Source: a virus. From it: a DNA stretch of 25,592 nucleotides. Positions 1 through 15,826 of the stretch are shown one piece after another. The notes below the pieces were generated by a model. The model ran no database searches, was not told the origin of the DNA, and saw only the letters and a program-made list of their open reading frames with translations. The stretch is from positions 1-25,592 of IMG/VR virus record IMGVR_UViG_3300013116_000078; one strand, given 5' to 3'. A program made the translations under genes and the position numbers. The number at the start of each line of letters is the position of its first letter. The stretch's first letter is position 1.

Positions 1-42
1 GGCGTGTGTTTTTTTCCGTGTTTTTATTCGATTGGGTGGCGT

Positions 43-495
43 ATGGTTCGAGGGCGTAAGAGAACACCAACAGAAATTGCGCGTTTGCGTGGATCGGCTA
101 AAAAAGACCCGCAGCGTATCAATCATAATGAGCCACAGCCGCAGCGGAAAAAGCACCGGAAACCGGCATGGATAAAAGACAAACACGCGAAAGAGGCCTA
201 CACGTATTATGTTAACCTCTTAGATGAATTAGGCGTCGTAACTGTAGCCGAGCGGGTAGCAATGGAACAATTAGCCGTAGCCTATGCAAATTGGAGGCGG
301 TGCCAAGAGGCCAGCGACCGGGAGGGAATAGTCGTAGATGGTAAGCGCAACCCAAACGATATAGCCGCGCGTGACTGGTATGACCGCCTATTAAAAATAT
401 TAGTAGAATTCGGCCTTACACCGTCGAGCCGTACGCGGATAGTCGTAAACAAACCGTCTGAGGCCGTTAAAGCCATCAACCCCCGCCAGCGATGA
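43..495 (+). CDS. terS: Terminase small subunit, P27 family
   Basis: This 150-aa protein is the DNA-recognition subunit of the packaging motor; it binds the phage packaging site and delivers DNA to the large subunit. The N-terminus is basic, with the MVRGRKRTPTEIARLRG pattern typical of P27-family small terminases, followed by a helical region (YYVNLLDELGVVTVAERVAM) and a C-terminal segment ending in LTPSSRTRI, also typical of the family. I chose the ATG at 43 because GGGTGG lies a few bases upstream; an in-frame GTG at 4 would add 13 untypical hydrophobic residues. The stop overlaps the terL start (ATGA), so the two are translationally coupled. The family call is from motif and position; binding specificity is not visible. 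Confidence 0.88.
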   Translation: MVRGRKRTPTEIARLRGSAKKDPQRINHNEPQPQRKKHRKPAWIKDKHAKEAYTYYVNLLDELGVVTVAERVAMEQLAVAYANWRRCQEASDREGIVVDGKRNPNDIAARDWYDRLLKILVEFGLTPSSRTRIVVNKPSEAVKAINPRQR

Positions 496-2132
496 CCGAC
501 AAAACAACTAAACGCTGGATATTCAACGAAGCCGACGAAAAGGCCGCAGCGAATGGCTATTTTATTGAGGAAGAACGCGGCGAGCATGTTTGTAATTTTA
601 TAGAATCCCAACTATGCCTATATGAGGGCGATTATGCCGGCAAGCCTATTCGGCTTATGGATTGGCAGGTAGAGATGTTTTATCGGCTGTTTGGCTGGGT
701 ATCTCACAGCGAATTCTACGATAGAACGATTAGACGGTTTCGGATTGCTAGCGTATGGCTACCAAAGAAAAACGGGAAAAGTCCAACCGGCGCCGCCGTA
801 GGTTTATACCTAATGGCTGCGGATGGTGAACCCGGCCAACACATTTACAGTTGCGCTCGCGATATGAAACAGGCGCGGATTGTACACAAAAATGCTTGCA
901 TGATGGTGGAGCAATCGCCGGCGCTTAGCCAAGTTTGCATGATTAACAATTCAACGGGCGTTATTAGCTATGAGCCGACGCATTCAAACTATCAAATTGT
1001 TGCCGGTTCTAACCATCAATCGCTAGAAGGGTTAAACGGTTCTACTATCGTTGATGAAGTCCACGTAGTAGACAGTAGAACGGCGCACGCAATAGAACAC
1101 GCCGGCATTAGCCGTAGCGAATGGATGCGTTTTGAAATATCGACCGCCGGTAATAATCTCGTAGGCTATGGCCGTAAACAATGGGAATATGGCGAAAAGG
1201 TAAACGCGGGCGAGATAGACGACGACGAATTCTTTTTTTTAAAGTATGCCGCCGATTCTACGCTGACCGATGATGAGCTGATGAGCCCCGAAGTATGGAA
1301 AACGGCTAATCCGTCAATGGGGACGATCATCAGTGAGGCCGAGTTCAAAAAGTCGATGACGCGCGCGCAGCGTAGCCTGACCGACTGGCAAAACTTCAAA
1401 ATGTACCGGTTGAACATTTGGTCGACGTCGTTTAGTCCGTGGCTTAAAAAATCAGATTGGGATAATTGCCGAGTTATATTTGACGAAGACGAATATTTAG
1501 GGCGCGAGTGTATCGGAGGCCTAGACTTGAGCCGTACCCGCGATATGACCGCTTTCGTGTTAGTGTTTGATGAGGGCGGCGGTAATTACGCCTGTTTGCC
1601 TTATTTTTTCTACCCAGAAACAGCCGCAAAAGAAAACGACCACTTAGCCCCATATTTACAATGGGCGGCTGATGGTTACCTAGATTTGATACCTGGCGAC
1701 GTAATCGACTACAACACCGTAGAAAATCGCATAGCCGAGTTAGCCGAAAAGTTTATAATTACCGAAATAGTGTACGACCGCTTATTTGCTGAAGATTTAA
1801 CCACGAGGCTAGAAAATCAGCTGGGTTGTTTAAAAACAAACTTCCCACAGACGATCATGCACTTTGCGGGGCCTACGGCCGAGTTAGAACGATTAGTTAT
1901 TAGCGGCAATTTGCGCCACAACAATAACCCGATTTTGAATTGGCAAGCGCAAAACGTCACAATTAAAACCGATCCAAACAACAACAAACGGCCTATAAAA
2001 CCCAGCAGCGACAATCCGGCAAAGATTGACGGAATGGTAGCCCTAATAATGGCACTTGGTAGAAGCATTGCGGAAGCGGAACCGATGCCTACTTACGATT
2101 ATTACGACAATAACCCGATCGAGTTAATGTAA
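492..2132 (+). CDS. terL: Terminase large subunit
   Basis: This 546-aa protein is the ATPase and nuclease of the packaging motor, acting at the portal vertex. Walker A is PKKNGKS (residues 91-97) and Walker B is STIVDEVH (184-191, D188/E189). The C-terminal RNase-H-like nuclease domain shows the expected acidic residues in GGLDLSRTRD (D345), EIVYDR (D429) and PAKIDGMVA (D513). The length is normal for the Terminase_1 (HK97/phiC31-like) group. The ATG overlaps the terS stop, and the portal gene starts directly after the stop. An HNH endonuclease at 25197-25541 is a likely partner in genome cleavage, as established for HK97-type packaging machines. All catalytic residues look intact. Confidence 0.97.
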   Translation: MTDKTTKRWIFNEADEKAAANGYFIEEERGEHVCNFIESQLCLYEGDYAGKPIRLMDWQVEMFYRLFGWVSHSEFYDRTIRRFRIASVWLPKKNGKSPTGAAVGLYLMAADGEPGQHIYSCARDMKQARIVHKNACMMVEQSPALSQVCMINNSTGVISYEPTHSNYQIVAGSNHQSLEGLNGSTIVDEVHVVDSRTAHAIEHAGISRSEWMRFEISTAGNNLVGYGRKQWEYGEKVNAGEIDDDEFFFLKYAADSTLTDDELMSPEVWKTANPSMGTIISEAEFKKSMTRAQRSLTDWQNFKMYRLNIWSTSFSPWLKKSDWDNCRVIFDEDEYLGRECIGGLDLSRTRDMTAFVLVFDEGGGNYACLPYFFYPETAAKENDHLAPYLQWAADGYLDLIPGDVIDYNTVENRIAELAEKFIITEIVYDRLFAEDLTTRLENQLGCLKTNFPQTIMHFAGPTAELERLVISGNLRHNNNPILNWQAQNVTIKTDPNNNKRPIKPSSDNPAKIDGMVALIMALGRSIAEAEPMPTYDYYDNNPIELM

Positions 2133-3809
2133 ATGCAACAAACGTACATTATCAACCCCGGCCAAGACGCGCGAGCAATCGAAAACCCTAACATCCCGCT
2201 GAGCAGTCCCGAAATATGGAACGAGGTTTTCGGCGACCAGACGACAAGCGCGGGTATTACGGTCAACCCGCAAAAGTCGTTAACGATCGGCGCAGTGTTT
2301 CAGGCGGTAAACCTAATCAGCGGGGACGTGGCAAAGTTACCTCTAAACGTTTACCGGCGCCGGCCTGATTTAGGCGTTAAAGGCCGCGAGGTTGACGAAG
2401 CTCACCCAGCGCAAACGCTCGTAAAATATCGCCCTAACGCTGAAATGAGCGCGTTCAAGTTCTGGCGGCGGTTAATGACTCACGCGCTTATATGGTCTAA
2501 CGCCTACGCATTGATTGAGCGTGACCCAATGGGCAACCCTATCGCTTTGTTTCCGCTGTTGCCGGATCGTACAGCACCAGCCAGAACAAAAGACGGCGTT
2601 TTATATTACACAAGCGAGATAGACGGCGAATTACACGGCTTTGCAGCGTCCAATATTCTACACATCGAACAAATCAGCATAACGGGTGAATCAGACTGCC
2701 AAATGGTTTACAAAGCCCGCGAAGCGTTCGCGCTAGCGTTGGCGGCCGAGCAGTTCGCGTCTAAATACTTCCGTAACGGTGGCCGAATCGGTGGAATCTT
2801 AGAAGTGCCGCCTGGCATGACTAAACAAGGAGCCGATAACCTAGAGAGCGGCTTTCGTAAAACATACGATCAGTTAGACGCGGCGTTCAAGTCAGTAATT
2901 TTGCGAGACGGTGCCAAGTTCCATCAGGGACAATTCACGCCGGAACAAACTCAAATGTTAGGCGCTCGGCAAGAACAGGTAAAAGAAATAGCCCGCTGGT
3001 TTAATATTCCACCGCATAAGCTCGGCGACGACTCAAAAGCGTCTTATAACAGCCTCGAGCAGGAAAACCGAGCCTATCTAAACGGCTGTTTATCGCATTG
3101 GCTAAAGACTATCGAGGCTGAATGTTACCTAAAATTGTTAACGCCCGCCGAGCAGGAACAAAACAGCCGATTTATAGAGTTTAACGTTGCCGCGTTAGTA
3201 GCCGCCGACATTGCGACACAGTACGGGATATTCAGAACGGGTATTGAGGCCGGTATTTTGTCACCTGACGAAGTCCGAGCTATGCAGAACCTAAACCCAC
3301 GGCCTGACGGTCTGGGGTCTAAGTATTTACGGCCTCTGAATATGGAATACGCGGATCAGGAACCAGAACCGCAAGAAACACCGGCAGAAATGGAGCCAGC
3401 CGAGCAAATCGTCGAAGAATCAGACGACGACTTACGATCCACAGCCAAAACCGTATTAGATGACGCTGTAGAACGATTTACAGCCTATTTAGTACGCAAA
3501 GTGAACCGAGAAGCAAAGCAAAAAGCCGCCGGCCGCTTTGTTAACTGGTTAGAGGTAGGCTATCAAGACGAAATAACAGGCTTGCACAAAGAAATAACGC
3601 CGGCCGCTATGGTTTATGCTGGATTAACACAGCGCGACGCAACCGAACTAATCGAAAGCATAACCAAACGCCTGTTTTATGGGTTATCGGCCGAGATAGA
3701 GCAAGTGTTAAACACGGCAGACGGCGATCAGATGCGCGCGGCACTATCAGCCGTTACCAAGTCATTTAAAACTAATGTAATCGCGTTTTATAGCGAGGTG
3801 ATAAAGTGA
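2133..3809 (+). CDS. Portal protein, HK97 family, with C-terminal extension
   Basis: This 558-aa protein forms the dodecameric portal ring through which DNA enters the capsid and to which the tail connector attaches. Residues 1 to about 409 look like a standard HK97-type portal core, including KYFRNGGRIGGILEVP, the ARQEQVKEIARWFNIPPHKLG segment in split form (ARQEQVKEIARWF, then PPHKLGD) and YNSLEQEN. Residues 410-558 are an extra tail: an acidic Pro/Glu linker, then a helical domain (VLDDAVERFTAYLVRKV ... AVTKSFKTNVIAFYSEVI). Long portals of this kind exist in other phages, so the extension is not unique. The gene begins straight after the terL stop without a clear ribosome-binding site, suggesting coupling. 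Its stop overlaps the protease start. Confidence 0.95.
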   Translation: MQQTYIINPGQDARAIENPNIPLSSPEIWNEVFGDQTTSAGITVNPQKSLTIGAVFQAVNLISGDVAKLPLNVYRRRPDLGVKGREVDEAHPAQTLVKYRPNAEMSAFKFWRRLMTHALIWSNAYALIERDPMGNPIALFPLLPDRTAPARTKDGVLYYTSEIDGELHGFAASNILHIEQISITGESDCQMVYKAREAFALALAAEQFASKYFRNGGRIGGILEVPPGMTKQGADNLESGFRKTYDQLDAAFKSVILRDGAKFHQGQFTPEQTQMLGARQEQVKEIARWFNIPPHKLGDDSKASYNSLEQENRAYLNGCLSHWLKTIEAECYLKLLTPAEQEQNSRFIEFNVAALVAADIATQYGIFRTGIEAGILSPDEVRAMQNLNPRPDGLGSKYLRPLNMEYADQEPEPQETPAEMEPAEQIVEESDDDLRSTAKTVLDDAVERFTAYLVRKVNREAKQKAAGRFVNWLEVGYQDEITGLHKEITPAAMVYAGLTQRDATELIESITKRLFYGLSAEIEQVLNTADGDQMRAALSAVTKSFKTNVIAFYSEVIK

Positions 3810-4435
3810 AAAAACAATTTCCAAACCAACGAGCCGTGAGCGTAGAAACACGGGACGACGGAACTAATGTAATTAGCGGCTATGCGGCCGTCTATCATCG
3901 AGCAGACGACGCGGGGACACAGTACGAACTCATGCCAGAATATTTCGAACGCATTAAGCCGGGAGCGTTTGACCGCGCACTAGCTGAAGGCCAAGACGTT
4001 AGGGCGTTATTCAATCATGATCCTAATCACGTGCTAGGCCGTTCAAAATCTGGAACTTTAAGAATGACCGCCGATAGTGTCGGTTTGCGTTACGAGGTAG
4101 ACCTACCCAACACGCAAACAGCGCGCGACTTAGCCGAAAGCGTGAAACGTGGCGACGTTAGCGGTTCGAGTTTTGCTTTTAGTGTTACCAAAGAAGGCCA
4201 AGAAATAGAACGATCCAAAGACGGCAACACCTATCGAAACATTAAGGACGCTAATTTATATGATGTGTCTGTTGTAACCTATCCCGCGTACGAATCGGCT
4301 ACTAGCGGCATTAGAACCGCCGAGAATGTAGAGGAAGCACGCGCAGCGCTTGAGCGTTGGGAAAGCGAGCAAAACGGGGCTATTGACGCCGTTAGAGTGA
4401 AGCTAAGAAAAATTAAGTTTGACCTAGAGGGCTAA
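3806..4435 (+). CDS. Prohead maturation protease, HK97 family (peptidase U35)
   Basis: This 209-aa serine protease processes the capsid precursor inside the prohead and then degrades itself. Family features are GYAAVYHRADD, FERIKPGAFDRAL, then ALFNHDPNHVLGRS carrying the presumed catalytic His (H71), SGSSFAF carrying the presumed catalytic Ser (around 119-122), and YDVSVVTYPAYESA. The start is a GTG at 3806 overlapping the portal stop, with GAGGTG at 3795-3800 as ribosome-binding site. Length and gene order (portal, protease, capsid) match HK97-type phages. The expected substrate is the N-terminal delta domain of the next gene. Confidence 0.95.
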   Translation: MKKQFPNQRAVSVETRDDGTNVISGYAAVYHRADDAGTQYELMPEYFERIKPGAFDRALAEGQDVRALFNHDPNHVLGRSKSGTLRMTADSVGLRYEVDLPNTQTARDLAESVKRGDVSGSSFAFSVTKEGQEIERSKDGNTYRNIKDANLYDVSVVTYPAYESATSGIRTAENVEEARAALERWESEQNGAIDAVRVKLRKIKFDLEG

Positions 4436-4446
4436 ATACCCATAAT
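4419..4446 (+). promoter_or_regulatory. Candidate promoter for the major capsid gene
   Basis: TTGACC (4419-4424) and CATAAT (4441-4446) are separated by 16 bases; each matches the sigma70-type consensus at 5 of 6 positions. The -35 lies inside the end of the protease gene and the -10 just after its stop. Transcription would start near 4453 and give the capsid gene a leader of about 140 nt that contains the structured RNA described separately. The promoter consensus of the real host is unknown. Confidence 0.55.
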
Positions 4447-4503
4447 TAGAAACGTCGGCGAAACGCTAAGAAGTAACCGTCACCATAAATAAAGTGAAAC
4501 CGC

Positions 4504-4590
4504 AGAGGCTGTATCTTTATTGCTCAAACAGGCAATATAGGTGCAGCCTTTTTCAATGCACCTAATAAACGTAATTTATAAAGGGTGCAT
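4504..4590 (+). promoter_or_regulatory. Structured leader RNA of the major capsid gene with alternative helices
   Basis: Helix A pairs AGGCTGTA (4506-4513) with TGCAGCCT (4542-4549), one wobble, and encloses a second stem TATTGC (4518-4523)/GCAATA (4532-4537); five T's follow at 4549-4553, as in an intrinsic terminator. Helix B pairs TAGGTGCA (4538-4545) with TGCACCTA (4557-4564), a perfect 8 bp that cannot coexist with A. Helix C pairs ATGCACCT (4556-4563) with GGGTGCAT (4583-4590), one wobble, covering the ribosome-binding site, and cannot coexist with B. The layout fits an attenuator or translational switch. Pairing was found by eye, without folding energies. Confidence 0.55.
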
Positions 4591-4593
4591 ATT

Positions 4594-5907
4594 ATGTCTA
4601 TCGACAAAATGCAAGACTTGCAGGAAGAGCGCAACCGCTTAGCCTCGCAAATCCAAGAGCTTGGCGAACGTCAGGCCGACTGGTCAGCAGAAGACCGCGA
4701 AAAATGGGACGTTCTGAATTCGGAATATGACCGAGTTGACGAAGAACGAAACGCAACACAGGAAGCGCTAAACGTAGCCGCTAAACTCGACGCCCTAAAA
4801 GGTGCCGAAGAGCGCGCAAACTACGAAGCAGAAAAAGCCGGAGACGGCCGAGTTACCGAAGCTGTTAAACGTGACGCCATGCGAGCATGGGCATTGTTCC
4901 AATCTGGGGTTAACCTCAGCCCTGAACAACGCGAAGCCGCTCACCGTTGCGGGGTCGATCCTCGACAAAGCTATTTTGAATATAACCTACGAAGTAACGC
5001 GCCGCGTTATTCTCACAACGGTTACGGAAAAGAGCTACGAGCGCAGGCCACTAGCCCAGCATCAGCCGGGGGTAACTTGATTCCTGAAGGTTTTTCAGCC
5101 GCTCTTGAACAGGCTTTGCTTCAATACGGCGGGATTCGTCGAGTTGCTAACGTTATGCGTACGGCTTCCGGTAATGATTTACCAATGCCAACCGTTAACG
5201 ATACTAGCAATAAGGGCGCTTTGCTTGCTGAAAATACTCAGGTTTCAGAGCAAGACGTCACCTACGGTAGCGTGACGCTTGGGGCCTACAAACTGACCTC
5301 TAAGCTTGTGCGTATTTCCTCCGAGTTGATGCAGGACAGCGCGTTTGATATGGGAAGCCAGCTAGGTTCCCTTATCGGCGAACGTCTCGCACGTGGAGCG
5401 TCAGATTACTTTGTTACTGGTACCGGTTCTAGCGAGCCACAAGGTGTAGTAACTGGGTCGAGCTTAGGCGTAACAGCCGCAAGCGCAACCGCTGTAACTT
5501 TTGATGAAATCATCGACCTAATCAACAGCGTAGACCCAGCCTATCAGGCGTCAGCATCTTTCGGCCTTGCAATGAATAACAGCACTAAGGCCGCTATTCG
5601 CAAGTTGAAAGATTCTAACGGTCAATACCTGTGGCAAGCTGGATTAACTGCAAGCGACCCCGATACCATTCTTGGAAAGCCTGTAGTCGTTCTACAAGAA
5701 ATGGCAGACATCGCTACCGGCGAAAAAACCATTTTGGCTGGCGATATGTCTAAATTCGTTATCCGCGACGCGGGCCCGGTCAGATTGGCTCGTATGGATG
5801 AACGCTACAGAGACTACGACCAGACCGGATTCGTAGCCTTTGCACGTGTCGATTCTATCGTGATCGACGCAGGCACTAACCCAATCAAACACTTGATCCA
5901 AGCGTAA
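4594..5907 (+). CDS. Major capsid protein, HK97 family
   Basis: This 437-aa precursor builds the icosahedral shell. Residues 1 to about 147 form a charged coiled-coil delta/scaffold domain (MQDLQEERNRLASQIQELG), expected to be removed by the upstream protease near KELRAQATS (about 146-154). The HK97-fold body follows: AGGNLIPEGF, YGGIRRVANVM, LTSKLVRISSELMQDSAFDM, YFVTGTGSSEPQGV and FVAFARVDSIVI. I chose the ATG at 4594, which is 8 bases after the AAGGG ribosome-binding site (4581-4585); a GTG at 4585 overlaps that site and is unlikely. The gene has its own promoter and a structured leader, fitting the need for high expression, and its codon use appears richer in C-ending codons than its neighbours. 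Confidence 0.96.
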   Translation: MSIDKMQDLQEERNRLASQIQELGERQADWSAEDREKWDVLNSEYDRVDEERNATQEALNVAAKLDALKGAEERANYEAEKAGDGRVTEAVKRDAMRAWALFQSGVNLSPEQREAAHRCGVDPRQSYFEYNLRSNAPRYSHNGYGKELRAQATSPASAGGNLIPEGFSAALEQALLQYGGIRRVANVMRTASGNDLPMPTVNDTSNKGALLAENTQVSEQDVTYGSVTLGAYKLTSKLVRISSELMQDSAFDMGSQLGSLIGERLARGASDYFVTGTGSSEPQGVVTGSSLGVTAASATAVTFDEIIDLINSVDPAYQASASFGLAMNNSTKAAIRKLKDSNGQYLWQAGLTASDPDTILGKPVVVLQEMADIATGEKTILAGDMSKFVIRDAGPVRLARMDERYRDYDQTGFVAFARVDSIVIDAGTNPIKHLIQA

Positions 5908-5917
5908 GGGGTTAGAT

Positions 5918-6133
5918 ATGAAGGTTGAGCTGTTAGTTAGTCGCGCCGGCGTTGGTTTTACGCAGAATTGCGGGGACATAATCGACGTAAGCGACGACGA
6001 AGCGCAGCGCCTCATTGATAGCAATCAGGCAAAAGCTGTTAGCGGTCGAAAGGCCGCTAGCAGTAAGCCTGCTATTGAGGCCGCTGTTAAAAAGAAGCCA
6101 CGAGCGCGAAAGCGAAAGCCGGTAGATGAATAA
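5918..6133 (+). CDS. Small protein after the capsid gene, function unknown
   Basis: This 71-aa protein starts ten bases after the capsid stop with GGGG upstream. The N-terminal half (MKVELLVSRAGVGFTQNCGD, then IIDVSDDEAQRLIDSNQAK) looks like a small beta fold ending in a helix, a pattern common in short proteins encoded right after HK97-type capsid genes. The C-terminal half is Lys/Arg/Ala-rich and ends KKKPRARKRKP, probably disordered and able to bind nucleic acid. The 3' end overlaps the next gene by 8 bases. A role in the head or head completion is inferred from position only. Confidence 0.75.
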   Translation: MKVELLVSRAGVGFTQNCGDIIDVSDDEAQRLIDSNQAKAVSGRKAASSKPAIEAAVKKKPRARKRKPVDE

Positions 6134-6737
6134 TTACGCAATAAAAACAATTACAGCGGCGACAGACTACCCGATAGATAGCACCGAGGCGAAGGCTCAT
6201 ATGGCTATTGATGACAGTACGTTTGACACGCAGATAAATGATTTTATTACAGCGGCAACGGCTTACATTGAAAACCGTACAGGCCGCCAAATATGCACGG
6301 CAACCTATGAATTGATTTTAGATAGGTTCCACAGTGTAAACGGTCGAATTTATCTACCAAAAGGCCAACTGCAAAGCGTAACCAGTGTTAAATACAAAGA
6401 CGGCGACGGGGTGGAGCAAACCCTAGCGAGTTCCGAATATATCGTAAGCGATAGCCGAGAGCCGGCGTTTATAGAGCCAGCATATTCTAAAAGCTGGCCT
6501 ACCACGCGGTTAGAATCCGACGCTGTCAGGGTTCGCTTTGTTTGCGGTTATGGGGACAGTGACGTAACGCCCGAAGCTATAAGTCAGGCGGCGTTATTGT
6601 TAGTAGCCCATATGTTTGAACACCGTGAGGCGGTTGTATTTAATGCCAGCCCGCAGGAAGTGCCGATGGCTGTAGAGGCCCTGATTAACCAATACCGTTT
6701 AGGAGACGACTACACGTGGTACGATCAGGAACGCTAA
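6126..6737 (+). CDS. Head-tail connector protein, HK97 gp6-like
   Basis: This 203-aa protein probably forms the adaptor ring under the portal. Its N-terminal half carries the family pattern: PIDSTEAKAHMAIDDSTFD, then an INDFITAATAYIENRTGRQI helix pair, followed by a beta region (LILDRF, IYLPKGQLQSVTSVKY). The C-terminal helix AISQAALLLVAHMFEHREAV matches the helical end of gp6-like connectors, and the QEVPMAVEALINQYR ending is typical. At 203 aa it is longer than minimal gp6 proteins of about 100 aa but normal for the long connector group. It overlaps both neighbours, consistent with coupled translation in the connector operon. Confidence 0.9.
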   Translation: MNNYAIKTITAATDYPIDSTEAKAHMAIDDSTFDTQINDFITAATAYIENRTGRQICTATYELILDRFHSVNGRIYLPKGQLQSVTSVKYKDGDGVEQTLASSEYIVSDSREPAFIEPAYSKSWPTTRLESDAVRVRFVCGYGDSDVTPEAISQAALLLVAHMFEHREAVVFNASPQEVPMAVEALINQYRLGDDYTWYDQER

Positions 6738-7042
6738 GGCACCGCGTGCAATTGCAAAGCCGAGCGACAACAGTAGACGACGCCGGCCAGCACATAGGCA
6801 CGTGGTCAACTTATCGCACATGCTACGCCGAAGTTATCGACAAAGGCGGCGCGGAAAAGATACGCGGCCAGCAGGTAGACGCTACGGTTTCGCATGTAGT
6901 GCGGATCAGATACCCACAGGGCACGTTTCCAACGCCAGAAAACCGCGTTGTTTACGATAGCCGAAATTTACACATTGAAAGCGTACAACGTCGAGACACG
7001 CACGAGCGCGAAGTCTGGCTGTATTGTCGGGAGGATGTGTGA
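6716..7042 (+). CDS. Head closure / head-tail joining protein
   Basis: This 108-aa protein resembles the SPP1 gp16 / Phage_H_T_join family, which closes the portal channel and docks the tail. The pattern GTLRHRVQLQSRATTVDDAG, then WSTYRTCYAEVIDKGGAEK, and the ending RNLHIESVQRRDTHEREVWL is characteristic, as is the length. The GTG start at 6716 follows AGGAG (6701-6705) by ten bases and overlaps the previous gene by 22 bases. The stop overlaps the next start by one base. The family call is by eye but well supported by order. Confidence 0.9.
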   Translation: MVRSGTLRHRVQLQSRATTVDDAGQHIGTWSTYRTCYAEVIDKGGAEKIRGQQVDATVSHVVRIRYPQGTFPTPENRVVYDSRNLHIESVQRRDTHEREVWLYCREDV

Positions 7043-7605
7043 TGGCTGTAAAAGAAAATATAGGCTTTAACGTCGATATGGACGTTGACCAGTCCGACCT
7101 AAACGACTTTTACAAACGATTAAAAGCATTAACGCCAAGCCTACGGCGCGAGGTGGAGCGTAAAGTTATTACAGCAGCGGGTAGCGGTTACAAGTCCTAC
7201 CTAAAGAAAGAGACACCGATGAGCCGCAAAACCGGAACATCAAGCAAATGGAGCGCATCGACTAAGGCAAAACGTGGAGCAACAAAAGACGCCCTTAAAC
7301 GTTCGGTAATTGCTAAGAAATCTACGAAATGGAACGATCCAAACAAGTGGCGAAAGGCTGGCGTTATCGGCGTTACCGTTGGCCATGCTTACAGAAATAA
7401 CGACGTTATAGGGCCACACGCGCATTTGGTAAACGCCGGTCACAAGGCGTATTACTGGAGCGACAAAGACAGCGGCCAGCGGGTACTCGGCAGCGGATAC
7501 CTGACGAAAGCCCAAAAAGCTGGAGCGCAGGCAGCGGGCGCAAAAATGAAAGCTAAGAGCAAGCAAGCCCTAGAGGTAGCAATCAGAAAGGCGGCCAGTA
7601 AATGA
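7042..7605 (+). CDS. HK97 gp10-like tail-completion protein
   Basis: This 187-aa basic protein belongs by position and pattern to the HK97 gp10 family, which helps join the tail to the head. Visible features are MDVDQSDLNDFYKRLKAL near the start, the SYLKKETPMSRKTG segment, and the HAHLVNAGHKAYYWSDK segment that corresponds to the conserved 'H...G' region of the family. The ATG at 7042 follows GGGAGG (7029-7034) with good spacing; an upstream in-frame TTG at 7024 is unlikely. It overlaps the previous gene by one base and the next by four. The high Lys content suggests contact with DNA or an acidic partner. Confidence 0.85.
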   Translation: MAVKENIGFNVDMDVDQSDLNDFYKRLKALTPSLRREVERKVITAAGSGYKSYLKKETPMSRKTGTSSKWSASTKAKRGATKDALKRSVIAKKSTKWNDPNKWRKAGVIGVTVGHAYRNNDVIGPHAHLVNAGHKAYYWSDKDSGQRVLGSGYLTKAQKAGAQAAGAKMKAKSKQALEVAIRKAASK

Positions 7606-8024
7606 GCGCAGTCTGCAGCGGTCTTAGAACCTACCTATTGACGATAACCGACGTAACGGATTTAGTCTCAACGCGGATCAGGCCAGACGCCCTAGCGCAG
7701 AATGAGACGTTTCCGGCGGTAGTCCTGAGCGAAACACGCAGCGACCACATGCACACTATCAGCGCATCGGCTGGTTTTGTTGAATCGCTGGTAGAGGTGG
7801 CTTGCTTTAGTTCAACACGGCTACAAGCCGAAAGCGTAGCGGAAGCAGTTCGGCAGGCATTACAAGGATACACAGGCACGGCCGGCAGTGAGTCGGTTAA
7901 AAGTTGCATTTTAGAAAGCCGAGACAGCGGGTATTTAGTACCTAACGACGGAAGCGACGACGGCCTATATGTAACATCATTAGACTTTAGAATCGTATTT
8001 ACGGAATCAATTCCGACATTTTAA
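7602..8024 (+). CDS. Tail terminator / tail-completion protein, DUF3168-like
   Basis: This 140-aa protein fits the DUF3168 family, which includes tail terminator proteins that cap the tail tube at the head end. Typical pieces are MSAVCSGLRTYLLTITDVTD, then IRPDALAQNETFPAVVLSE, a strand/helix segment ESLVEVACFSSTRLQAESVA, and a final strand VTSLDFRIVF. It lies between the gp10-like gene and the tail tube gene, exactly where this protein is expected. The ATG overlaps the preceding stop. Family assignment is from pattern and position. Confidence 0.87.
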   Translation: MSAVCSGLRTYLLTITDVTDLVSTRIRPDALAQNETFPAVVLSETRSDHMHTISASAGFVESLVEVACFSSTRLQAESVAEAVRQALQGYTGTAGSESVKSCILESRDSGYLVPNDGSDDGLYVTSLDFRIVFTESIPTF

Positions 8025-8039
8025 CAAGGAGCTTTTACA

Positions 8040-8423
8040 GTGGCTTTACAAACTGGAAACGGTGTTACCATCGTGTTTGGCACCAGCGGTTTCACCGCAA
8101 ATTACACACGAATCGGCGGTACCGAAATGAGCCGCGAAAGCATCGAAACTACGCATTTAGGAACAAGCGATTATAAAACGTTTGTTCCCGATGACCTGAT
8201 TGACGGCGGCGAGTTTAGCTGTGAATTCTATTGGGACCCGGCTTTTACTACGTTTCCTCCGATCAGCGCAGACGCGGAAACAATCACAATAACCTACACA
8301 ACAGGCGAAACGCTGAGCGGTTCCGGGTTCCTGACAAGTAGCACAGGGCCAGACGCTGAAAACGGTTCTTTGTTGTCAGGTGAATTTAGCATTAAATGGG
8401 CAGGACAACCGACCTACGCCTAA
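8040..8423 (+). CDS. Major tail tube protein
   Basis: This 127-aa beta-rich protein is the likely building block of the tail tube. It starts MALQTGNGVTIVFGTSGF, with further pieces IETTHLGTSDYKTFVPDDL and DGGEFSCEFYWDP, and ends GEFSIKWAGQPTYA, as in short siphovirus tail tube proteins. The start is GTG at 8040, eight bases after AAGGAG. It lies between the terminator-like gene and the tail chaperone genes. It is near the lower end of the size range, with no C-terminal Ig-like domain. Confidence 0.88.
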   Translation: MALQTGNGVTIVFGTSGFTANYTRIGGTEMSRESIETTHLGTSDYKTFVPDDLIDGGEFSCEFYWDPAFTTFPPISADAETITITYTTGETLSGSGFLTSSTGPDAENGSLLSGEFSIKWAGQPTYA

Positions 8424-8442
8424 AACCTAGAAAGGGGATAAA

Positions 8443-8700
8443 ATGAAAGTATCATTCGAACCACACCCAAACGAGTCGGTTGACGACGTTCAAAAGATTT
8501 TATTAGACGGTGTTCACGTTGGTTACTGTGGCACGAAAACCGGCCGGCCTATATGTTTTATAACGCCGGTATCCGGTGACGTGTCGAAGTTAGTCAAAAA
8601 GGCGGTAGCAGAAAACGTCGGCGAAGCGTCGAGCGTTAACCAGCCGCCCGAATCGGTAGAGATTGAAGGGGTAGACGATGACCATAGCGACGAAGAATGA
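8443..8700 (+). CDS. Small acidic protein of unknown function in the tail module
   Basis: This 85-aa protein has a strong ribosome-binding site (AAAGGGG at 8431-8437). Residues 1-45 look like a small beta fold (VQKILLDGVHVGYCGTKTG, then RPICFITPVSGD), followed by a helix (VSKLVKKAVAENVG) and an acidic tail ending DDDHSDEE. The last 23 bases overlap the chaperone gene. I do not recognise a family. Its place between tail tube and chaperone suggests a role in tail assembly, perhaps an accessory chaperone, but this is inference only. Confidence 0.72.
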   Translation: MKVSFEPHPNESVDDVQKILLDGVHVGYCGTKTGRPICFITPVSGDVSKLVKKAVAENVGEASSVNQPPESVEIEGVDDDHSDEE

Positions 8701-9058
8701 TTTATTTTCAAGAGCCGGCCGACGGTTTAAGACTGTAGAAATTGCAGATTTGACGTTTCGTATTAAATCACTAAGCGAAGCCGAAAAAAGCAGGTTCGAA
8801 CGCGCAGTCGTAAACAAGAAAACCGGACAGGTTAACATTGACGCGCGGCGACGCCTAATCATAACTATGTTAGTTGATGACAAAGGAGAGCCGCTGTTGA
8901 CGTTGGCTGATATGGAGGCTTTAGGCGAATTAGACGGGGCAATTATTGCCGCCCTGTTTGATGCGTGTAGTGATTTTGCAGGTTTCGGTGATAATGAGAT
9001 AGAGGAACTGGAAAAAAACTGCGAAACGATAGCCGCCGCCGTTTCGCCTACAAGCTAG
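8678..9058 (+). CDS. Tail assembly chaperone, short form (gpG-like)
   Basis: This 126-aa protein, made without frameshifting, is the probable equivalent of lambda gpG: it coats the tape measure protein and recruits tail tube subunits. It begins MTIATKNDLFSRAGRRFKTV and is rich in charged helices. The ATG at 8678 follows GAAGGGG (8665-8671). The identification rests on position between tail tube and tape measure and on the slippery A AAA AAC near the 3' end, after which the -1 frame continues as a clear T-domain. The stop is TAG at 9056-9058. The sequence alone is poorly conserved, as is usual for this family. Confidence 0.85.
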   Translation: MTIATKNDLFSRAGRRFKTVEIADLTFRIKSLSEAEKSRFERAVVNKKTGQVNIDARRRLIITMLVDDKGEPLLTLADMEALGELDGAIIAALFDACSDFAGFGDNEIEELEKNCETIAAAVSPTS

Positions 9059-9336
9059 GCCTAGCCTTAGGCGTTTGGGACGTCCCCCAAATGCTTGAAG
9101 ATATGCCGGCGGAAACTTTCGACGAGTGGATAGCGTTTTATCACGTGGAACCGTTCGGCGAAGAATGGCTACAGACTAGCTACCTTTGTTCAATAGTGTT
9201 AAACCTATTGGCAAAGAACAAAAGCGACCTGTTAGAGCTAGATGCGTTTGTTCCAGAATTCAAACGCAAAAAGAAAAAACAGGTTATAGACGACCAGTAT
9301 ATTAACGCGATGAGGTACGGTAAAAAGAATGGCTAG
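8678..9336 (+). CDS. Tail assembly chaperone, long frameshifted form (gpGT-like)
   Basis: This is the product of a -1 ribosomal frameshift, join(8678..9019, 9019..9336), about 219 aa. After the slip at A AAA AAC (9013-9019) the reading continues as LRNDSRRRFAYKLGLALGVW and on into MLEDMPAETFDEWIAFYHVE and PFGEEW, the hallmark of T-domains in siphovirus tail chaperones. The new frame stays open without a start codon until 9091, so the join explains how this segment is translated. The T-domain recruits tail tube protein to the gpG-bound tape measure in lambda. The stop at 9336 overlaps the tape measure start. Confidence 0.88.
9013..9047 (+). promoter_or_regulatory. Programmed -1 ribosomal frameshift site
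   Basis: The slippery heptamer A AAA AAC lies at 9013-9019 in the correct phase (GAA AAA AAC in frame 0). Directly after it, GCGAAACG (9021-9028) and CGTTTCGC (9040-9047) form a perfect 8-bp stem with an 11-nt loop. The spacer is a single base, shorter than the 5-9 nt usual for stimulatory structures. CGCC within the loop could also pair with GGCG at 9070-9073 to make a pseudoknot. Confidence 0.85.
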
Positions 9337-10729
9337 CATCGGATCAATAGCCGCTACGTTTGTAGCTAAAACTGCACCTTTTGAATCAGGCGTTAAACGT
9401 GCGCGCGGTTCTATGGACTCGTTCGGGAAGTCTGTAATTAAAACAGCCGCAAAGATTGGCGCGGCGTTAGGTGGTATCCAGTTTTTTAAGACTGGGATAG
9501 GATTAGCGGCTCAATTAGAGCAAGATATTATCGCCATTAAAGCGTTTACGGGGTCACTAGAAAGCGCTAATGCACTGATCGAACAGCTAACAGAATTTGC
9601 TGCTAAAACACCGTTCCAATTAAAAGAACTAATAGGGTCAACTAAACAGCTTTTAGCGTTTGGCGTTAGTGCCGATAAAGTGAAAGATACTTTATTTGTG
9701 TTAGGCAACCTAGCCGCAACGGCAGATGCTAACATCGGCGACCTAGCACAGATTTTTGGCAAGATTAAAAGCCAGGGCAAACTAATGGGAGAAACGCTAA
9801 ATCAGTTAGCTGAGCGTGGAATCCCTGTTATTAGCGCCTTAGCCGATCATTTCAAAGTACCCGAAGAAGCCATCCGGGAGATGGTTAGTGCTGGGCAAAT
9901 TTCATTTAACGATTTTGAAGCCGCTATGAATTCTTTGGCGGGCGAGGGGGGGCAGTTCGGCAACGCAATGGCCGAGCAAGCCGACACGTTAAAAGGTAAA
10001 TGGTCTACGTTTAAAGATGCTATTGAAAAACTATCAAGAGAAATAGGGCAGGCGCTAATTCCTGTGATGAAAGATTTGCTAAATGTCGGGTTTGTGGTCG
10101 TCGAATGGATACAAGGGCTAGACATGGATACCGTTAAATTTACGGCGTCCGTAATTGCAGGCGTAGCAGCGTTTGCTTTAACGATAAAAATAATTGGTAA
10201 AGTAGCGAGGGTTGTTAAAACCTTTATTACGACGTTAAGAGCATTAGCAGCAGCTAAAGCCACGGCAATGGCATTTAGCGGGCCGGCTGGCTGGGCTATG
10301 TTAGCAGGCGCAGGGATTGCAGCGGCTGGCGCGGTTGTTGGTATTAACGCGGCATTTGATTCTATATCTGGCGGCGCAGACAAAGCGACTAACGAAATAG
10401 ACAGGTTAGCTAACAGCACTCAAAATATGGAGGCTGTAGCGGCCGGAACCGAAAAAATAGGCGATGTCGCCGAAAAGAACACAAAAAAGCTAGAGCAGGA
10501 AAACAAAGAGCTAGAAAAGATGGCTGAGCGGCTAGACATCATAGCAAACCGCGCAGGCGTAGGCGTTGCAATACGTGGAACCGTACAAGCGGCCGAGGCT
10601 AGGACGCATGCAATAAAGAATCTAGAAAAACATCAGGTAGCGCAGTTAAAAGCGCAACAAGAAGCTAACAAGCATTTAGCAAATATTGAAAACAACACAG
10701 GCAAACAGCCGGCAATAGTGGGTATATAA
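9329..10729 (+). CDS. Tape measure protein (short)
   Basis: This 466-aa protein sets tail length and occupies the tube lumen. The N-terminal half carries the tape-measure domain: GIGLAAQLEQDIIAIKAF, TPFQLKELIGSTKQLLAFGV, GKLMGETLNQLAERGIPVI, then ISFNDFEAAMNSLAGEGGQF. Hydrophobic stretches at about 265-285 and 315-340 (AAGAVVGINAAF) could insert in the host membrane during ejection, and a charged coiled coil (KNTKKLEQENKELEKMAERL) follows. At about 1.5 angstrom per residue, the known rule of thumb, the tail would be near 70 nm, which is short for a siphovirus. It overlaps both neighbours by a few bases. Confidence 0.93.
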   Translation: MASIGSIAATFVAKTAPFESGVKRARGSMDSFGKSVIKTAAKIGAALGGIQFFKTGIGLAAQLEQDIIAIKAFTGSLESANALIEQLTEFAAKTPFQLKELIGSTKQLLAFGVSADKVKDTLFVLGNLAATADANIGDLAQIFGKIKSQGKLMGETLNQLAERGIPVISALADHFKVPEEAIREMVSAGQISFNDFEAAMNSLAGEGGQFGNAMAEQADTLKGKWSTFKDAIEKLSREIGQALIPVMKDLLNVGFVVVEWIQGLDMDTVKFTASVIAGVAAFALTIKIIGKVARVVKTFITTLRALAAAKATAMAFSGPAGWAMLAGAGIAAAGAVVGINAAFDSISGGADKATNEIDRLANSTQNMEAVAAGTEKIGDVAEKNTKKLEQENKELEKMAERLDIIANRAGVGVAIRGTVQAAEARTHAIKNLEKHQVAQLKAQQEANKHLANIENNTGKQPAIVGI

Positions 10730-11829
10730 TGGCAGTAACAAGCGTAAAGATTTTACATGACGGGTGGACGGGATCAGGAACCGTCGGCGCCGGTGTTACG
10801 TTTAACGTTATCTACCAAGTAGAAGTAGACGACCGGAACGACGGGCCTGATGTTTTGCTAAGTGCCGACGACGGGACAACGCGCGTTCCTAGGCCGGGCG
10901 ACTCTTACCAAGTAGGGAACGATTCAGACCCGTTTTCATTTGTAAAAAGCGTTAGCCCATCGCCAGTAGCTGAAAAAGTTTGGAATGTTACCGTAGTATT
11001 CAGCCCGTTAGAGCCGGGCGAAAGCGAAGACGGGCCGGAAGGCCAACAGCCGAATGGCTTAGACCCAAACAGACGACCTACAGACAACCCATTAGACGAA
11101 AAAGTTGTTATATCTGTTTCTAGTGTAAACGCAAAACGTGCAGCAACAGCTTCGGCTTACATCGGACAATTAAACGTACAGGGGTTAAACGTGGGGTTTG
11201 ATGCAACGGGTTTTATACCAGGGTCTCCTAAAGTTGCGTTAACGACATCGCCAGACGGTAAAGGCGGTATTAGAGATAAAACACCAATCACAAACAGCGT
11301 TTTTACACCGTTTGACCCGCCGCCGGAAATTGATTATTCACAGGTGCGCGTTTCTATTAATATGAATTTAAAGTTCGCGCCGGTCGGCTGGCTAGATTTT
11401 GTAAATTCTGTTAATGCTCAACCGATATCATTTACGGACGGTTTTAATATGTTAGCCGGCGCTCAGCCTTTCGCCTGTAGATGTATGGCGGTTAGCTACA
11501 GCGAGCGAATTAAAAACGGGGTATTCTTTTGGTCAACTGACATAGAATTTTTAATAGATAATCTGTTTACGCATCGCCTTGACATACTAGACCGAGGGTA
11601 TTGTGAAACCAGCAATAAAAAGGTCAGCGAAGCGACGACGAAAAATAATATTGTAGATGAAAACGGGTTACCGTTAGCTGACCCCGTTTTATTAGACGGA
11701 AAAGGTAAGCAGTTAAATATAGAAGTTTCGGACGGCGTGTATTTACGATACGCAGTTTACCCCGAGTTCAATTGGAATTGGTGGGGAATAAGCAACCCGC
11801 AAGCCTTACAACATAGGATGAATAACTGA
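10729..11829 (+). CDS. Minor tail / tail-tip protein, function unknown
   Basis: This 366-aa protein follows the tape measure with a TAATG overlap, where the distal tail (Dit-like) or tail-tip hub is expected. The N-terminal third is beta-rich (AGVTFNVIYQVEVDDRNDGP), followed by a Pro/Asp/Asn-rich linker (about residues 95-125) and a larger domain with KVVISVSSVNAKRAATASAY, INMNLKFAPVGWLDFVNSVN and MAVSYSERIKNGVFFWSTDI. The ending FNWNWWGISNPQALQHRMNN is Trp-rich. I do not recognise a named family but similar architectures come to mind from planctomycete-associated phages. Structural function is inferred from position. Confidence 0.78.
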   Translation: MAVTSVKILHDGWTGSGTVGAGVTFNVIYQVEVDDRNDGPDVLLSADDGTTRVPRPGDSYQVGNDSDPFSFVKSVSPSPVAEKVWNVTVVFSPLEPGESEDGPEGQQPNGLDPNRRPTDNPLDEKVVISVSSVNAKRAATASAYIGQLNVQGLNVGFDATGFIPGSPKVALTTSPDGKGGIRDKTPITNSVFTPFDPPPEIDYSQVRVSINMNLKFAPVGWLDFVNSVNAQPISFTDGFNMLAGAQPFACRCMAVSYSERIKNGVFFWSTDIEFLIDNLFTHRLDILDRGYCETSNKKVSEATTKNNIVDENGLPLADPVLLDGKGKQLNIEVSDGVYLRYAVYPEFNWNWWGISNPQALQHRMNN

Positions 11830-12644
11830 TGGCTGATATAATTTGGACTAACGGCAACGCTGACGGCGATTGGGCTAATACGGCTAACTGGCTCGGCGGT
11901 GCGATCCCAGCGGCTGGGGATAACGTTTACTTTACGAGCGAATATATCGGCGACGTAACAACGAACCTAGACAGAACCGCTGATGGTACGCTAGGTAATC
12001 TAATTGTCGAGGAAGGATACAGCGGCAAAATTGGAAGTAAGGCCGGCTATTTAGAATTAATATGCGGCGGGGTAACGTTTGACGGTTCCGGCTTATGCTT
12101 TATCGACGTCAACACGTCGGCAATAGATATAACGGTTACAGGCACCGCTAGAGCGGCCACAGGACAACAGGGGCTTTACCTGAAAGGCTCGGCTATTGAC
12201 GAATTAAACGTTACAGGCGGCACCGTAGGCGTAGCGGCTAGAGCTGGGGAAACAGCAACAGTAGCCACGATTAACGTAAACGGCGGTACCGTAAACGCTG
12301 GCTCAGGTGCAACCCTGACGACGTTAACGGGGTACGCTGGGGCTATGAATAGTAAAGCCGGCCTAACAACCGTTAACCTAATTGGCGGCAACGCAAAGGT
12401 AGAGGGCAACATTACAACGGCTAACCTAGAAGCCGGCGTTTTAACTTACAACGGGTCTGGAACAATTACGACATGTAACGTTCAAGGCGGCACGGTTGAT
12501 TGTTTTGCAACTGCACTGGCTCGCACGATTACGACGTTAAACATTAAGCCCGGCGGCGGTATTATTTACGATCCGGACGTTGTAACTGTTAGCACATTAA
12601 CGAGCAACGGAAACCCCATAAATATAAGTTCTACCGATGCCTAA
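11829..12644 (+). CDS. Beta-repeat surface or tail fibre-like protein
   Basis: This 271-aa protein begins MADIIWTNGNADGDWANTAN, then WLGGAIPAAGDNVYF. This W-G-W-NW-G-P-DNV pattern is common in repeat-rich surface proteins of Planctomycetes and Verrucomicrobia. The remainder is Gly/Thr/Val/Asn-rich with irregular repeats of the type LNVTGGTVGVAAR, INVNGGTVNAGSG, VNLIGGNAKVEGN and CNVQGGTVDCFA, spaced about 20-40 residues apart. That periodicity suggests a beta-solenoid. It starts at the previous stop (TGATG). A role in the tail tip, such as host-surface contact, is inferred. No catalytic motif is visible. Confidence 0.78.
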   Translation: MADIIWTNGNADGDWANTANWLGGAIPAAGDNVYFTSEYIGDVTTNLDRTADGTLGNLIVEEGYSGKIGSKAGYLELICGGVTFDGSGLCFIDVNTSAIDITVTGTARAATGQQGLYLKGSAIDELNVTGGTVGVAARAGETATVATINVNGGTVNAGSGATLTTLTGYAGAMNSKAGLTTVNLIGGNAKVEGNITTANLEAGVLTYNGSGTITTCNVQGGTVDCFATALARTITTLNIKPGGGIIYDPDVVTVSTLTSNGNPINISSTDA

Positions 12645-13254: not shown

Positions 13255-14841
13255 ATGCTATCTAGATTTAATTCGGGGTGCGATTGTGACTGTTGCATTG
13301 TTTACCGGTCAGAATTCTGCAAGCATTGGCATCAATCCGTTTTTGAGCGGCGATACTTTGGCAATATAGACGGCCATCCATCACGTATGAACCTAAACGG
13401 CGGTACGTTTGATCAAGAGGGCGTATTTATTGAGGATGGCGTAGGCGTTAATCCAAAGGTCTGGGAAATTCGTAATGATGCTTGCAATCAAAATTTAAAT
13501 GATTGTGAAGATAACGTTGATCCCAAAGATTATACGTACAGTGCTAGTCACTATTTAACACCAACGACTAATGTAGCAAACACCTATTTAAAAACTAAAG
13601 TAATCGCTAACAAATTTAATTGGTGGATGTATACCTTTTGGGACACCTGCGATTCAAATGACGGCAGCCATTGCTGGGACGCGACAGAAAGCGAGCCGGT
13701 CAGCAACCAAAAAATGGTTTTTATCTTTGATTATGTAGACAAAGATAATTGGGTAGGCATCGAGGTAGAATATGCGCCGGATTTTGACATTACACCCGGT
13801 GCGGTACAGAGTATCTTTAAAGCTAAAGGCCGCCAAAATACCGAGGGCGTTCTGTCAGATTTAACGGAAGAAACAACCCTTGATCTAGGCATTAATGATA
13901 ACAAAATAAATGTTGGCATAGATATTTTCGTTGATAACAACAGCGACTGCGGCAATATAGATTTTGTTAATATGCAATTCCAAAATGTTGAATTTAGTTT
14001 TGGTTACACGCCCAAAAACGGAGACTATATTGCATTAGTGCAAAGCAGCAATTCCGGCGTTGTTGATACGATCACTTGTGATTCGCAAGAATACACAATT
14101 GGCGGCGGATTTGGGATCTACAACTGGGTCCATCAGTACATGGAATCGGAGCAAGCCGGATGCGCAGAATTGCCGGAGGCGACTTGCTGCGATTGTTTTA
14201 TTCCGGCTGAAATGGACGTAACTTTATCGGGGTTTTCAGATGATGATTGTGGTTGGTGCGATACGGAATTAGACGATACGTTTACTTTGATTTATCGGGG
14301 GCAAAGAGACGTTTTACACGTGCCATGCGACGAAGACCCTCCCTATTATCGGACGTGGTGTGAATGGGGCTATTTTTACAGCGAATACGATACTGCAACC
14401 TGCGAAAAAGAAAAACCGTGGCCGCATGGGGGAAATACCGACGTCTCTATTTACACAATGCGCCTACGAGTTAGGCATTACGAATATTTAGACCCCGACG
14501 CTGTAACAAACTACCGCTCTGATTGGATCTTTGAAATTGTTTTAACACATCCTAACGTAGGCGCCCCAGATTATTTTCTAGAAACTAACCTTTGTCATTA
14601 TCACTGGAAATACACGCAGGATCATGGAACCGAATTAACGAAAAACTGCAATTTAACAGGGTCAGAAGAATTTGAATATCTTGATGCTTTTGAAGGTGAA
14701 GACGATTGTGTTGACGAAGACGAATTTCCTTATTATGGGTGTTCTATGTCATACCAATCAGGTCTGGAGCTGCTAACATATGAAGTAGATTTTGATGATT
14801 GGTGTGAAACGATGGGGAGTGTAACGGTAGAGCGTGGTTGA
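13255..14841 (+). CDS. Cysteine-rich tail-tip or receptor-binding candidate
   Basis: This 528-aa acidic protein contains 25 cysteines, four of them in the cluster CDCDCC near residues 9-14 and others in ATCCDCF and DDDCGWCD. It is rich in Asp, Glu, Tyr and Trp and poor in Lys. A middle segment (KMVFIFDYVDKDNWVGIEVE, LGINDNKINVGIDIFVD) looks like a beta-sandwich of the lectin/laminin type. Cysteine density of this kind suggests metal binding or disulfides formed outside the cell. The gene is more A/T-rich than its upstream neighbours. It starts directly after the previous stop, and position after the tail-tip genes favours a host-contact protein. No family is firmly recognised. Confidence 0.75.
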   Translation: MLSRFNSGCDCDCCIVYRSEFCKHWHQSVFERRYFGNIDGHPSRMNLNGGTFDQEGVFIEDGVGVNPKVWEIRNDACNQNLNDCEDNVDPKDYTYSASHYLTPTTNVANTYLKTKVIANKFNWWMYTFWDTCDSNDGSHCWDATESEPVSNQKMVFIFDYVDKDNWVGIEVEYAPDFDITPGAVQSIFKAKGRQNTEGVLSDLTEETTLDLGINDNKINVGIDIFVDNNSDCGNIDFVNMQFQNVEFSFGYTPKNGDYIALVQSSNSGVVDTITCDSQEYTIGGGFGIYNWVHQYMESEQAGCAELPEATCCDCFIPAEMDVTLSGFSDDDCGWCDTELDDTFTLIYRGQRDVLHVPCDEDPPYYRTWCEWGYFYSEYDTATCEKEKPWPHGGNTDVSIYTMRLRVRHYEYLDPDAVTNYRSDWIFEIVLTHPNVGAPDYFLETNLCHYHWKYTQDHGTELTKNCNLTGSEEFEYLDAFEGEDDCVDEDEFPYYGCSMSYQSGLELLTYEVDFDDWCETMGSVTVERG

Positions 14842-15826
14842 TTGTATTTTTAAAAAGTCTGGCAATATTTACCAGTGTTCAAATTGTGGAGCTACTAAAA
14901 AGAAAGCAACCCGCAGAAATTGCAGCCTAAAAAAAGGTTTTGGTGATACCGTCGCAAATATCACAAAAGCAGTCGGCGTTAAGGCGTGCGGCGGTTGTAA
15001 CAAACGACGCGCAAAACTGAATAATCTAACAGCAACGCCGGCTTATAGAAACGCCCGGTTAATACGTACCGCCGAGCTAGTGAAAGATTCTATAAAACTA
15101 GCTGAGCAGGTGCCGCCAGAAGTAGACGGCGTTTGCGGGATACCGCGCAGCGGGATGATACCGGCCAGCGTAATAGCGGCCCATTTGCATTTACCGCTAT
15201 ACACCTACCACAAAGGGCAGGTTAAAAACGTCGGCAAGGGATCACGGCTAAACAATACGGAAGCACAAAATATATTATTTGTAGATGATACGACGATGAT
15301 GGGTAGCACACTAAAAAAGCTGGAAAGCGTCAAGGGATTGAAGGCTAGCGTGTACGTTAATCCGCACAGCCCGCGCAAGCCTGACCTATACACAAAAGAA
15401 TTAGAGCCGCCGCACTTGTTAGAGTGGAACCTGTTTAATAGCGGCTTTTGTAAAAATATGGCTTTTGACATGGACGGCGTCATATGCCATGATCAGCCGC
15501 CGGAGCTATGGGGTAAGCGGGTAGAGCGCCCGCGATACTTGCCGAGGCGTAGCCCGGTAACAATAATAACGGCAAGGCTAGAACGCGACCGACTGGCTAC
15601 CGAATCATGGCTGAAGGATCACGGGGTAACCGTTGAAAAGCTGGTTATGTTTCCCGGCACTGAGGTTGACAGATTGCAACCGAAAGCAGTTAGCGAGTAT
15701 AAGGCCAAAGCGTTTAAGGCGTCCGGCAAAGATTGGTACGTTGAAAGCGATAGCATACAGGCGCGAGAAATAGCAGAATTAACAGGCGCGTGGGTTATTT
15801 GCACAGAAAACAGTAAGGTTTATTGA
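14834..15826 (+). CDS. Zinc-finger / phosphoribosyltransferase / HAD hydrolase fusion
   Basis: This 330-aa protein has three parts. Residues 1-65 hold Cys pairs (CSNCGA at 15-20, CGGC at 52-55) that could bind zinc. Residues 70-190 look like a type I phosphoribosyltransferase: GIPRSGMIPASVIA (102-115) and the PRPP loop LFVDDTTMMGST (148-159). Residues 205-330 look like a HAD phosphatase: FDMDGVICHD (D212, D214), ITAR (T246) and WYVESD (D306). All key residues appear present, so both enzymes may be active, for instance on a base or nucleoside monophosphate. The GTG at 14834 overlaps the previous gene by 8 bases. The substrate is unknown. Its position among tail and lysis genes is unexpected for a metabolic enzyme. 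Confidence 0.85.
   Translation: MVDCIFKKSGNIYQCSNCGATKKKATRRNCSLKKGFGDTVANITKAVGVKACGGCNKRRAKLNNLTATPAYRNARLIRTAELVKDSIKLAEQVPPEVDGVCGIPRSGMIPASVIAAHLHLPLYTYHKGQVKNVGKGSRLNNTEAQNILFVDDTTMMGSTLKKLESVKGLKASVYVNPHSPRKPDLYTKELEPPHLLEWNLFNSGFCKNMAFDMDGVICHDQPPELWGKRVERPRYLPRRSPVTIITARLERDRLATESWLKDHGVTVEKLVMFPGTEVDRLQPKAVSEYKAKAFKASGKDWYVESDSIQAREIAELTGAWVICTENSKVY

Follow-up and report, generated by a model that had tools for sequence, protein, structure and literature searches.

Mutually exclusive RNA helices ahead of a phage capsid gene, a candidate two-level switch conserved among uncultured relatives

An uncultured marine phage, known from a record of 25,592 bases that is called the window here, carries between its protease and capsid genes a leader of mutually exclusive RNA helices. 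One of these, helix B, recurs with changed sequence in 29 clusters of relatives without leader similarity. We propose that the leader is a two-level switch in which helices A and C would be the off state and helices AT and B the on state, a model to which we give about an even chance of being right. On/off control of the most abundant protein of the phage by a conserved leader is, judging from the sequences, probably real and so far undescribed. The features on which the argument is built are the following.

3806-4435, + strand: prohead protease gene (open reading frame; PF04586, E 5.6e-48), its end overlapped by the promoter -35
4419-4446, + strand: sigma70-type promoter, TTGACC-N16-CATAAT (sequence; promoters of relatives in the same position)
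4454-4481, + strand: hairpin P1, CGG-c-GAA-acgctaaga-AGUA-a-CCG, first of a tandem GAA/GUA pair (pattern, relatives)
4488-4521, + strand: antiterminator candidate AT, AAUAAAG-u-GAA-accgcagaggc-UGUA-u-CUUUAUU, second tandem hairpin (7 of 7 pairs)
4504-4551, + strand: helix A, terminator-like hairpin of 13 pairs plus an inner 7-pair stem (folding, pair check)
4538-4545, + strand: helix B left arm, within the 3' arm of A (pair check, conserved complementarity)
4549-4553, + strand: U-run after helix A (sequence)
4556-4590, + strand: helix C, hairpin over the ribosome-binding site, 4556-4563 with 4583-4590 (pair check; fold of the region after A, z -3.57)
4557-4564, + strand: helix B right arm, 3' of the U-run, which doubles as helix C left arm (pair check, growth series)
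4580-4585, + strand: Shine-Dalgarno (SD) candidate AAAGGG, partly within helix C (sequence)
4594-5907, + strand: major capsid protein gene, HK97 fold family (open reading frame; PF05065, E 2.5e-62)

The terminase, portal, protease and capsid genes of the window stand in the usual order according to open reading frames and profile matches, and 158 bases separate the protease end at 4435 from the capsid start at 4594. Elsewhere in the window, an HNH endonuclease-like frame, recognised from its translation, lies at the right end (25197-25541); joining the genome ends would bring it next to the left-end small terminase, so that the record may be a near-full genome. A long frame on the minus strand (24081-24755) is metallophosphoesterase-like by its sequence, the other long genes being on the plus strand, and a frame in the late region (14834-15826) resembles, by its sequence, a phosphoribosyltransferase fused to a phosphatase-like domain.

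An earlier note on this DNA had described helix A as 4506-4513 paired with 4542-4549, with an inner stem of 4518-4523 and 4532-4537 and five T's behind it, helix B as 4538-4545 with 4557-4564, and helix C as listed above. All of these pairings were reproduced, with 8 of 8 pairs at the exact coordinates for A, 6 of 6 for its inner stem, 8 of 8 each for B and C, and the five T's at 4549-4553. Helix A turned out to be longer than first noted, with 13 pairs between 4504-4516 and 4539-4551, and at -27.1 kcal/mol it is a stable hairpin followed by a U-run, as an intrinsic terminator should be. Furthermore, the region 4447-4620 folds far better than its shuffles (z = -5.7, 0 of 200), and when 10,000 dinucleotide shuffles were examined, 5 contained overlapping helices arranged like A, B and C, while 502 other stretches of the window had none.

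Relatives were collected by capsid searches in IMG/VR, where leaders were recognisable in close relatives, down to 59% identity, and wholly different in sequence in distant ones, at 45-57% and below. Removal of near-duplicates left 99 leaders; 49 have a strong hairpin and T-run 5' of the capsid start, and 43 of the 49 are terminator-like, which group into 29 clusters that lack leader similarity. Since these leaders were chosen for the T-run, the proportion with a U-tailed hairpin is not itself a result. Among GTDB genomes a first capsid scan gave no relative and a second gave only relatives of 28-47% identity, none of them with A and B. A DNA search of annotated phages returned no match, and no such leader was found in six cultured relatives (Rhizobium 16-3, RHph_Y3_1, Labrenzia LagS-V1, SfV, Halomonas QHHSV-1 and Synechococcus Ssp-JY37), whose protease-capsid gaps are about 8-95 nt by annotation.

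The promoter that the earlier note had placed upstream of the leader is present at 4419-4446, where it is the top-ranked of 11 promoter-like sites in positions 1-12000. Eleven is also the number expected from shuffles, so that the match by itself is within chance and its support comes from the relatives: at the matching place the promoter was better than in shuffles (p<0.05) in 15 of the 29 clusters, and several clusters have a perfect TTGACA with a -10 element at or near TATAAT. In one group (L071-L075 and L122) the promoter directly 5' of the capsid leader reads TTGACA-N16-TATACT or TATAAT and the hairpin tip is AAACCCCAAAGUUU.

Downstream of the promoter lie the tandem hairpins P1 and AT. 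AT (4488-4494 with 4515-4521) is a fourth helix, absent from the earlier note, whose 3' strand lies inside the 5' strand of A and which competes with A from upstream. In the window and close relatives AT is thus an earlier-made hairpin that uses the terminator 5' arm, as attenuators have, and we regard it as a better antiterminator candidate than B. Its architecture (stem-GAA-N11-UGUA-stem) resembles that of P1 (stem-GAA-N9-AGUA-stem), so that both may be called loop-E-like; GAA opposite AGUA, as in P1, is how a bulged-G or loop-E motif would read in sequence. The P1 helix is retained with changed pairs in seven relatives (L003, L012, L020, L021, L023, L024 and L025) and the AT helix, again with other pairs, in five: L003 has CGAC..GC/GC..GUCG, L025 has CGAU..GC/GC..AUCG, L012 and L021 have CUAAAGC/GCUAUAG with one A-A mismatch, and L023 is the fifth. 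In L003, whose capsid is 99% identical to that of the window, the AT strand and the inner stem of A are altered together. The GAA/GUA pattern was found in 17 of the 49 leaders, mostly in the closer group, against 6.9 expected, a count that is no clean test because the pattern had been seen in some leaders beforehand. In its strict form the pattern is also present twice in tandem in L154, L160 and L210. Over all 29 clusters the pairing of the upstream region with the 5' arm was not significant (z -0.96), which indicates that AT belongs to a subgroup. A search for the GAA/GUA hairpin elsewhere in the window gave one weak match, within the terminase gene (566-600), which was judged to be chance.

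Tandem hairpins directly 3' of a promoter and 5' of a terminator are also what would be expected if the 5' hairpins acted on the polymerase in processive antitermination, as HK022 put RNA does, or if a Q-like protein did so at the promoter; A would then be the first terminator that the polymerase has to pass, and B, by holding on to the 3' arm of A, would keep the antiterminator RNA in its fold. The put RNA has two stem-loops in about 70 nt, and one copy of it lies just 3' of its promoter (PMC9378689). However, no strong plus-strand terminator that would need read-through was found past the capsid gene within 1-12000, and many clusters with A and B show no tandem hairpins. We consider processive antitermination unlikely, if slightly less so than the other alternatives.

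The two-level switch gives AT and B different tasks, and the order of transcription separates them. In a series of growing RNAs, P1 and AT make up the minimum structure for 3' ends at 4524-4536 and A takes over from 4542-4548 onwards, and the right arm of B, which lies 4-11 bases past the U-run, is complete only at 4564. B therefore cannot prevent termination and can act on read-through RNA only, and the claim that B blocks the terminator fails, as its right arm is not yet RNA when termination would be decided and A is already the minimum structure. The other part of the claim, that A plus C is off and B is on, stands as the best reading. Under it, RNA would start near 4453 from the promoter at 4419-4446, and P1 would fold first, followed by AT. 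In the off state the 3' arm of A would displace AT, and the A hairpin and U-run would end transcription; in any leaked RNA A would stay folded, leaving 4557-4564 free for C to cover the ribosome site, with poor translation as the outcome. In the on state a factor, which could be a protein, a small molecule or a modified RNA polymerase, would hold AT so that the polymerase passes the U-run, and B would then capture the 3' arm of A and, by occupying the left arm of C, expose the ribosome site. B would be a relay through which translation depends on what becomes of A, and not an antiterminator. The computation bears on the helices, on their mutual exclusivity and conservation and on the order in which they are transcribed; termination, ribosome masking, the switch and a signal for it are inferred from these.

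Energies computed for the window weigh against the model. The ensemble energy of the A plus C state is -53.6 kcal/mol and that of the AT plus B state -36.3, a gap of about 17 kcal/mol in favour of A plus C, so that B would hardly form unaided, and reaching it would take a factor or kinetic trapping. When AT was forced alone, the best structure included B; the predicted probability that the SD is open was 0.84 in the AT plus B state, compared with 0.50 in the A (C) state. When B was forced alone on the same stretch it was just 0.63, so that the full effect depends on AT as well. For L012 the A and B states come out at the same computed energy (-47.3 and -47.6), and L021 has a gap of 4.5 with openness of 0.19 vs 0.78.

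Termination would not be the whole function of these helices, since close relatives hold A with B or near-B without a U-run. The U-run is kept in L001-L011, L021 and L024, broken in L025 and absent in L012-L020, L068 and L023, where helix A is retained with B or with near-B, which consists in those close relatives of 4 of the 6 core pairs and an inner GCC/GGC helix. L012 (positions 2841-3000) forms with L013-L020 and L068 a sister clade that has kept helix A and near-B and lost the U-run. These relatives suggest that the A/B pair is valuable apart from termination, in favour of a role in translation or processing. A rival reading, in which an RNase III-type cut within A frees its 3' arm and B becomes a protective 5'-terminal hairpin that opens the ribosome site, would account both for B being downstream of A and for the relatives that have A and B but no U-run. 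It leaves unexplained the U-run right after A in most relatives (a count biased by the selection of leaders for a U-run), as well as the promoter just upstream and the conserved AT hairpin, and we regard RNA processing or stability as an improbable explanation.

Evidence for the relay comes from helix B itself, defined across the 29 clusters as the pairing of the 3' arm of the U-tailed hairpin with the stretch between the U-run and the start codon. Its mean energy is -18.3 kcal/mol, compared with -12.4 when partners are swapped (z -10.2; 0 of 20,000 permutations), and by cluster the mean z is -2.01 with 16 of 29 at p<0.05. Among 79 other terminator-like hairpins of the same loci the mean z was -0.22 and 6 reached p<0.05. 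Pairing of the upstream region with the 3' arm gave z +0.4; the control of the 5' arm against the downstream stretch was not clean (z -3.2), of which partly palindromic arms may be the source. In 86 capsid loci of cultured phages and bacterial genomes terminators were few and helix B was found at none.

The arms themselves differ widely: UGCCGGCAG/CUGCCGGCA in L160, GUCGGCGA/UCGCCGAC in L172 and GUCGGCGA/UCGUCGAC in its relative L182, GCUGGUGA/UCAUCAGC in L232 and GCUGGUGA/UCACCAGC in L235, CAGCGGU/ACCGCUG in L122 and CAGCGGC/GCCGCUG in L075, and UGCCGACG/CGUCGGCA in L053, whose capsid identity is just 28%. In the close family, where arms were picked by hand because automatic alignment misplaces them, the six core pairs are GGUGCA/UGCACC in the window, GGUAUG/CAUACC in L021, GGUACG/CGUAUC in L023 and GGUGCA/UGCGCC in L025, and with one mismatch CGCGCA/UGCGCU in L024 and GGUGGG/CGCACC in L012; both sides have changed at 4 of the 6 positions. 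The alternative pairings proposed in the earlier note are therefore conserved in homologues, where the mutually exclusive helices are kept with compensatory changes.

A plain leaky terminator followed by an ordinary hairpin near the start codon, with no switching, would agree with the wide margin of stability that A has over the other states of the window, but helix B is absent at the other terminators of the same loci and at the pre-capsid terminators of bacterial genomes, and its conservation with changed sequence in 29 clusters makes this account quite improbable. Weakest of all is an operator array in DNA, in which the A, B and C arms are alternating-orientation half-sites for a repressor of the capsid promoter and RNA folding is a side effect: the arms of a DNA inverted repeat also remain complementary, so that conservation alone cannot tell RNA from DNA, and the G-U excess beside the perfect core, no higher than chance, is uninformative on the matter, but sites 60-140 bases 3' of the promoter start, extending past the U-run into the ribosome site, an A helix that extends to 13-22 pairs and arm sequences that have changed even in L003, despite its 99% identical capsid, render it very improbable.

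The ribosome-site hairpin that the earlier note had proposed recurs in relatives, more weakly than B. Compared with the starts of other genes at these loci, regions after A have the more stable folds (mean z -0.86 vs 0.00, p = 0.004); compared with capsid starts that lack hairpin A, their advantage is marginal (p = 0.07). Over the clusters, predicted SD openness rises from 0.43 in the A state to 0.54 in the B state (p = 0.014). As far as folding can tell, the window clade does have helix C (z about -2.5 to -3.6), as do L053, L155, L160 and L098 among others; it is not universal, being weak or missing in L122, L168, L024 and L025. Where it forms, it is predicted to hide the SD in read-through RNA, as in TRAP-type control. 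In another group (L175, L176, L190 and L192) a near-invariant GCGAAACGCtATAGCGCGGTAGCTGC stands at the hairpin base about 100-120 nt 5' of the capsid start, and the ribosome-site hairpin varies with apparently compensating pairs (AACC/GGUU, CACU/AGUG, AACCU/AGGUU).

Searches of known RNA families placed the leader in none of them. Rfam covariance models gave no match in the window at the gathering score, and a permissive search of the leader and its relatives (E up to 3-10) gave no credible match. A leader-peptide attenuator was also considered and rejected, as a 23-codon open frame of the window type is broken in L211/L003 and L153 and is not conserved. No description of such a capsid leader was found in the literature collection searched, which is weak evidence of novelty. 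Explanations of how tailed phages make so much capsid protein generally invoke promoters and gene order; in many uncultured lineages the capsid gene would here be directly preceded by a conserved RNA device that none of the RNA family libraries searched contains. If this is true, RNA switching would be added to phage late gene control, and helix B would be a marker with which such leaders can be found without sequence similarity. A bolder and doubtful extension is that the tandem GAA/GUA hairpins are a receptor for an infection signal (capsid protein, a metabolite or polymerase state), with the A/B/C relay setting capsid transcription and translation, as a new family of viral switches in a large group of uncultured phages.

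Among known systems, lambda pR' has the 6S RNA leader and terminator tR', a promoter-proximal terminator before the late genes, and the phage leader similarly has a promoter-proximal terminator-like hairpin before a late gene. Late control in lambda is exerted by the Q protein at promoter DNA, and a conserved helix B or C is no part of its description. P1 and AT are two stem-loops at 4454-4521 and, as in HK022 put RNA, such tandem hairpins stand just after a promoter and before a terminator; put is described as acting on RNA polymerase, with no terminator-arm overlap or ribosome-site switch in the part of the account consulted (PMC9378689). The activity ascribed to put is suppression of distant terminators through the zinc-binding domain of the polymerase beta' subunit. 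The Bacillus subtilis rplJL L10 attenuator offers a parallel in that it too lies in the leader for an assembly protein made in large amounts; it is autoregulated and belongs to a ribosomal protein operon, the gene here being that of a capsid protein (PMC4538822). The nearest functional precedent, by analogy, is the leader of the B. subtilis trpEDCFBA operon, where TRAP sets both termination and an SD-hiding structure (PMC12288461). As in the TRAP-controlled leader, a single phage leader would combine termination with an SD-hiding hairpin in read-through RNA (PMC12288461); unlike the trp leader, it showed on reading no (G/U)AG repeats of the kind that TRAP binds, it precedes a capsid gene, and one short segment, the right arm of B, links its terminator hairpin to its ribosome-site hairpin.
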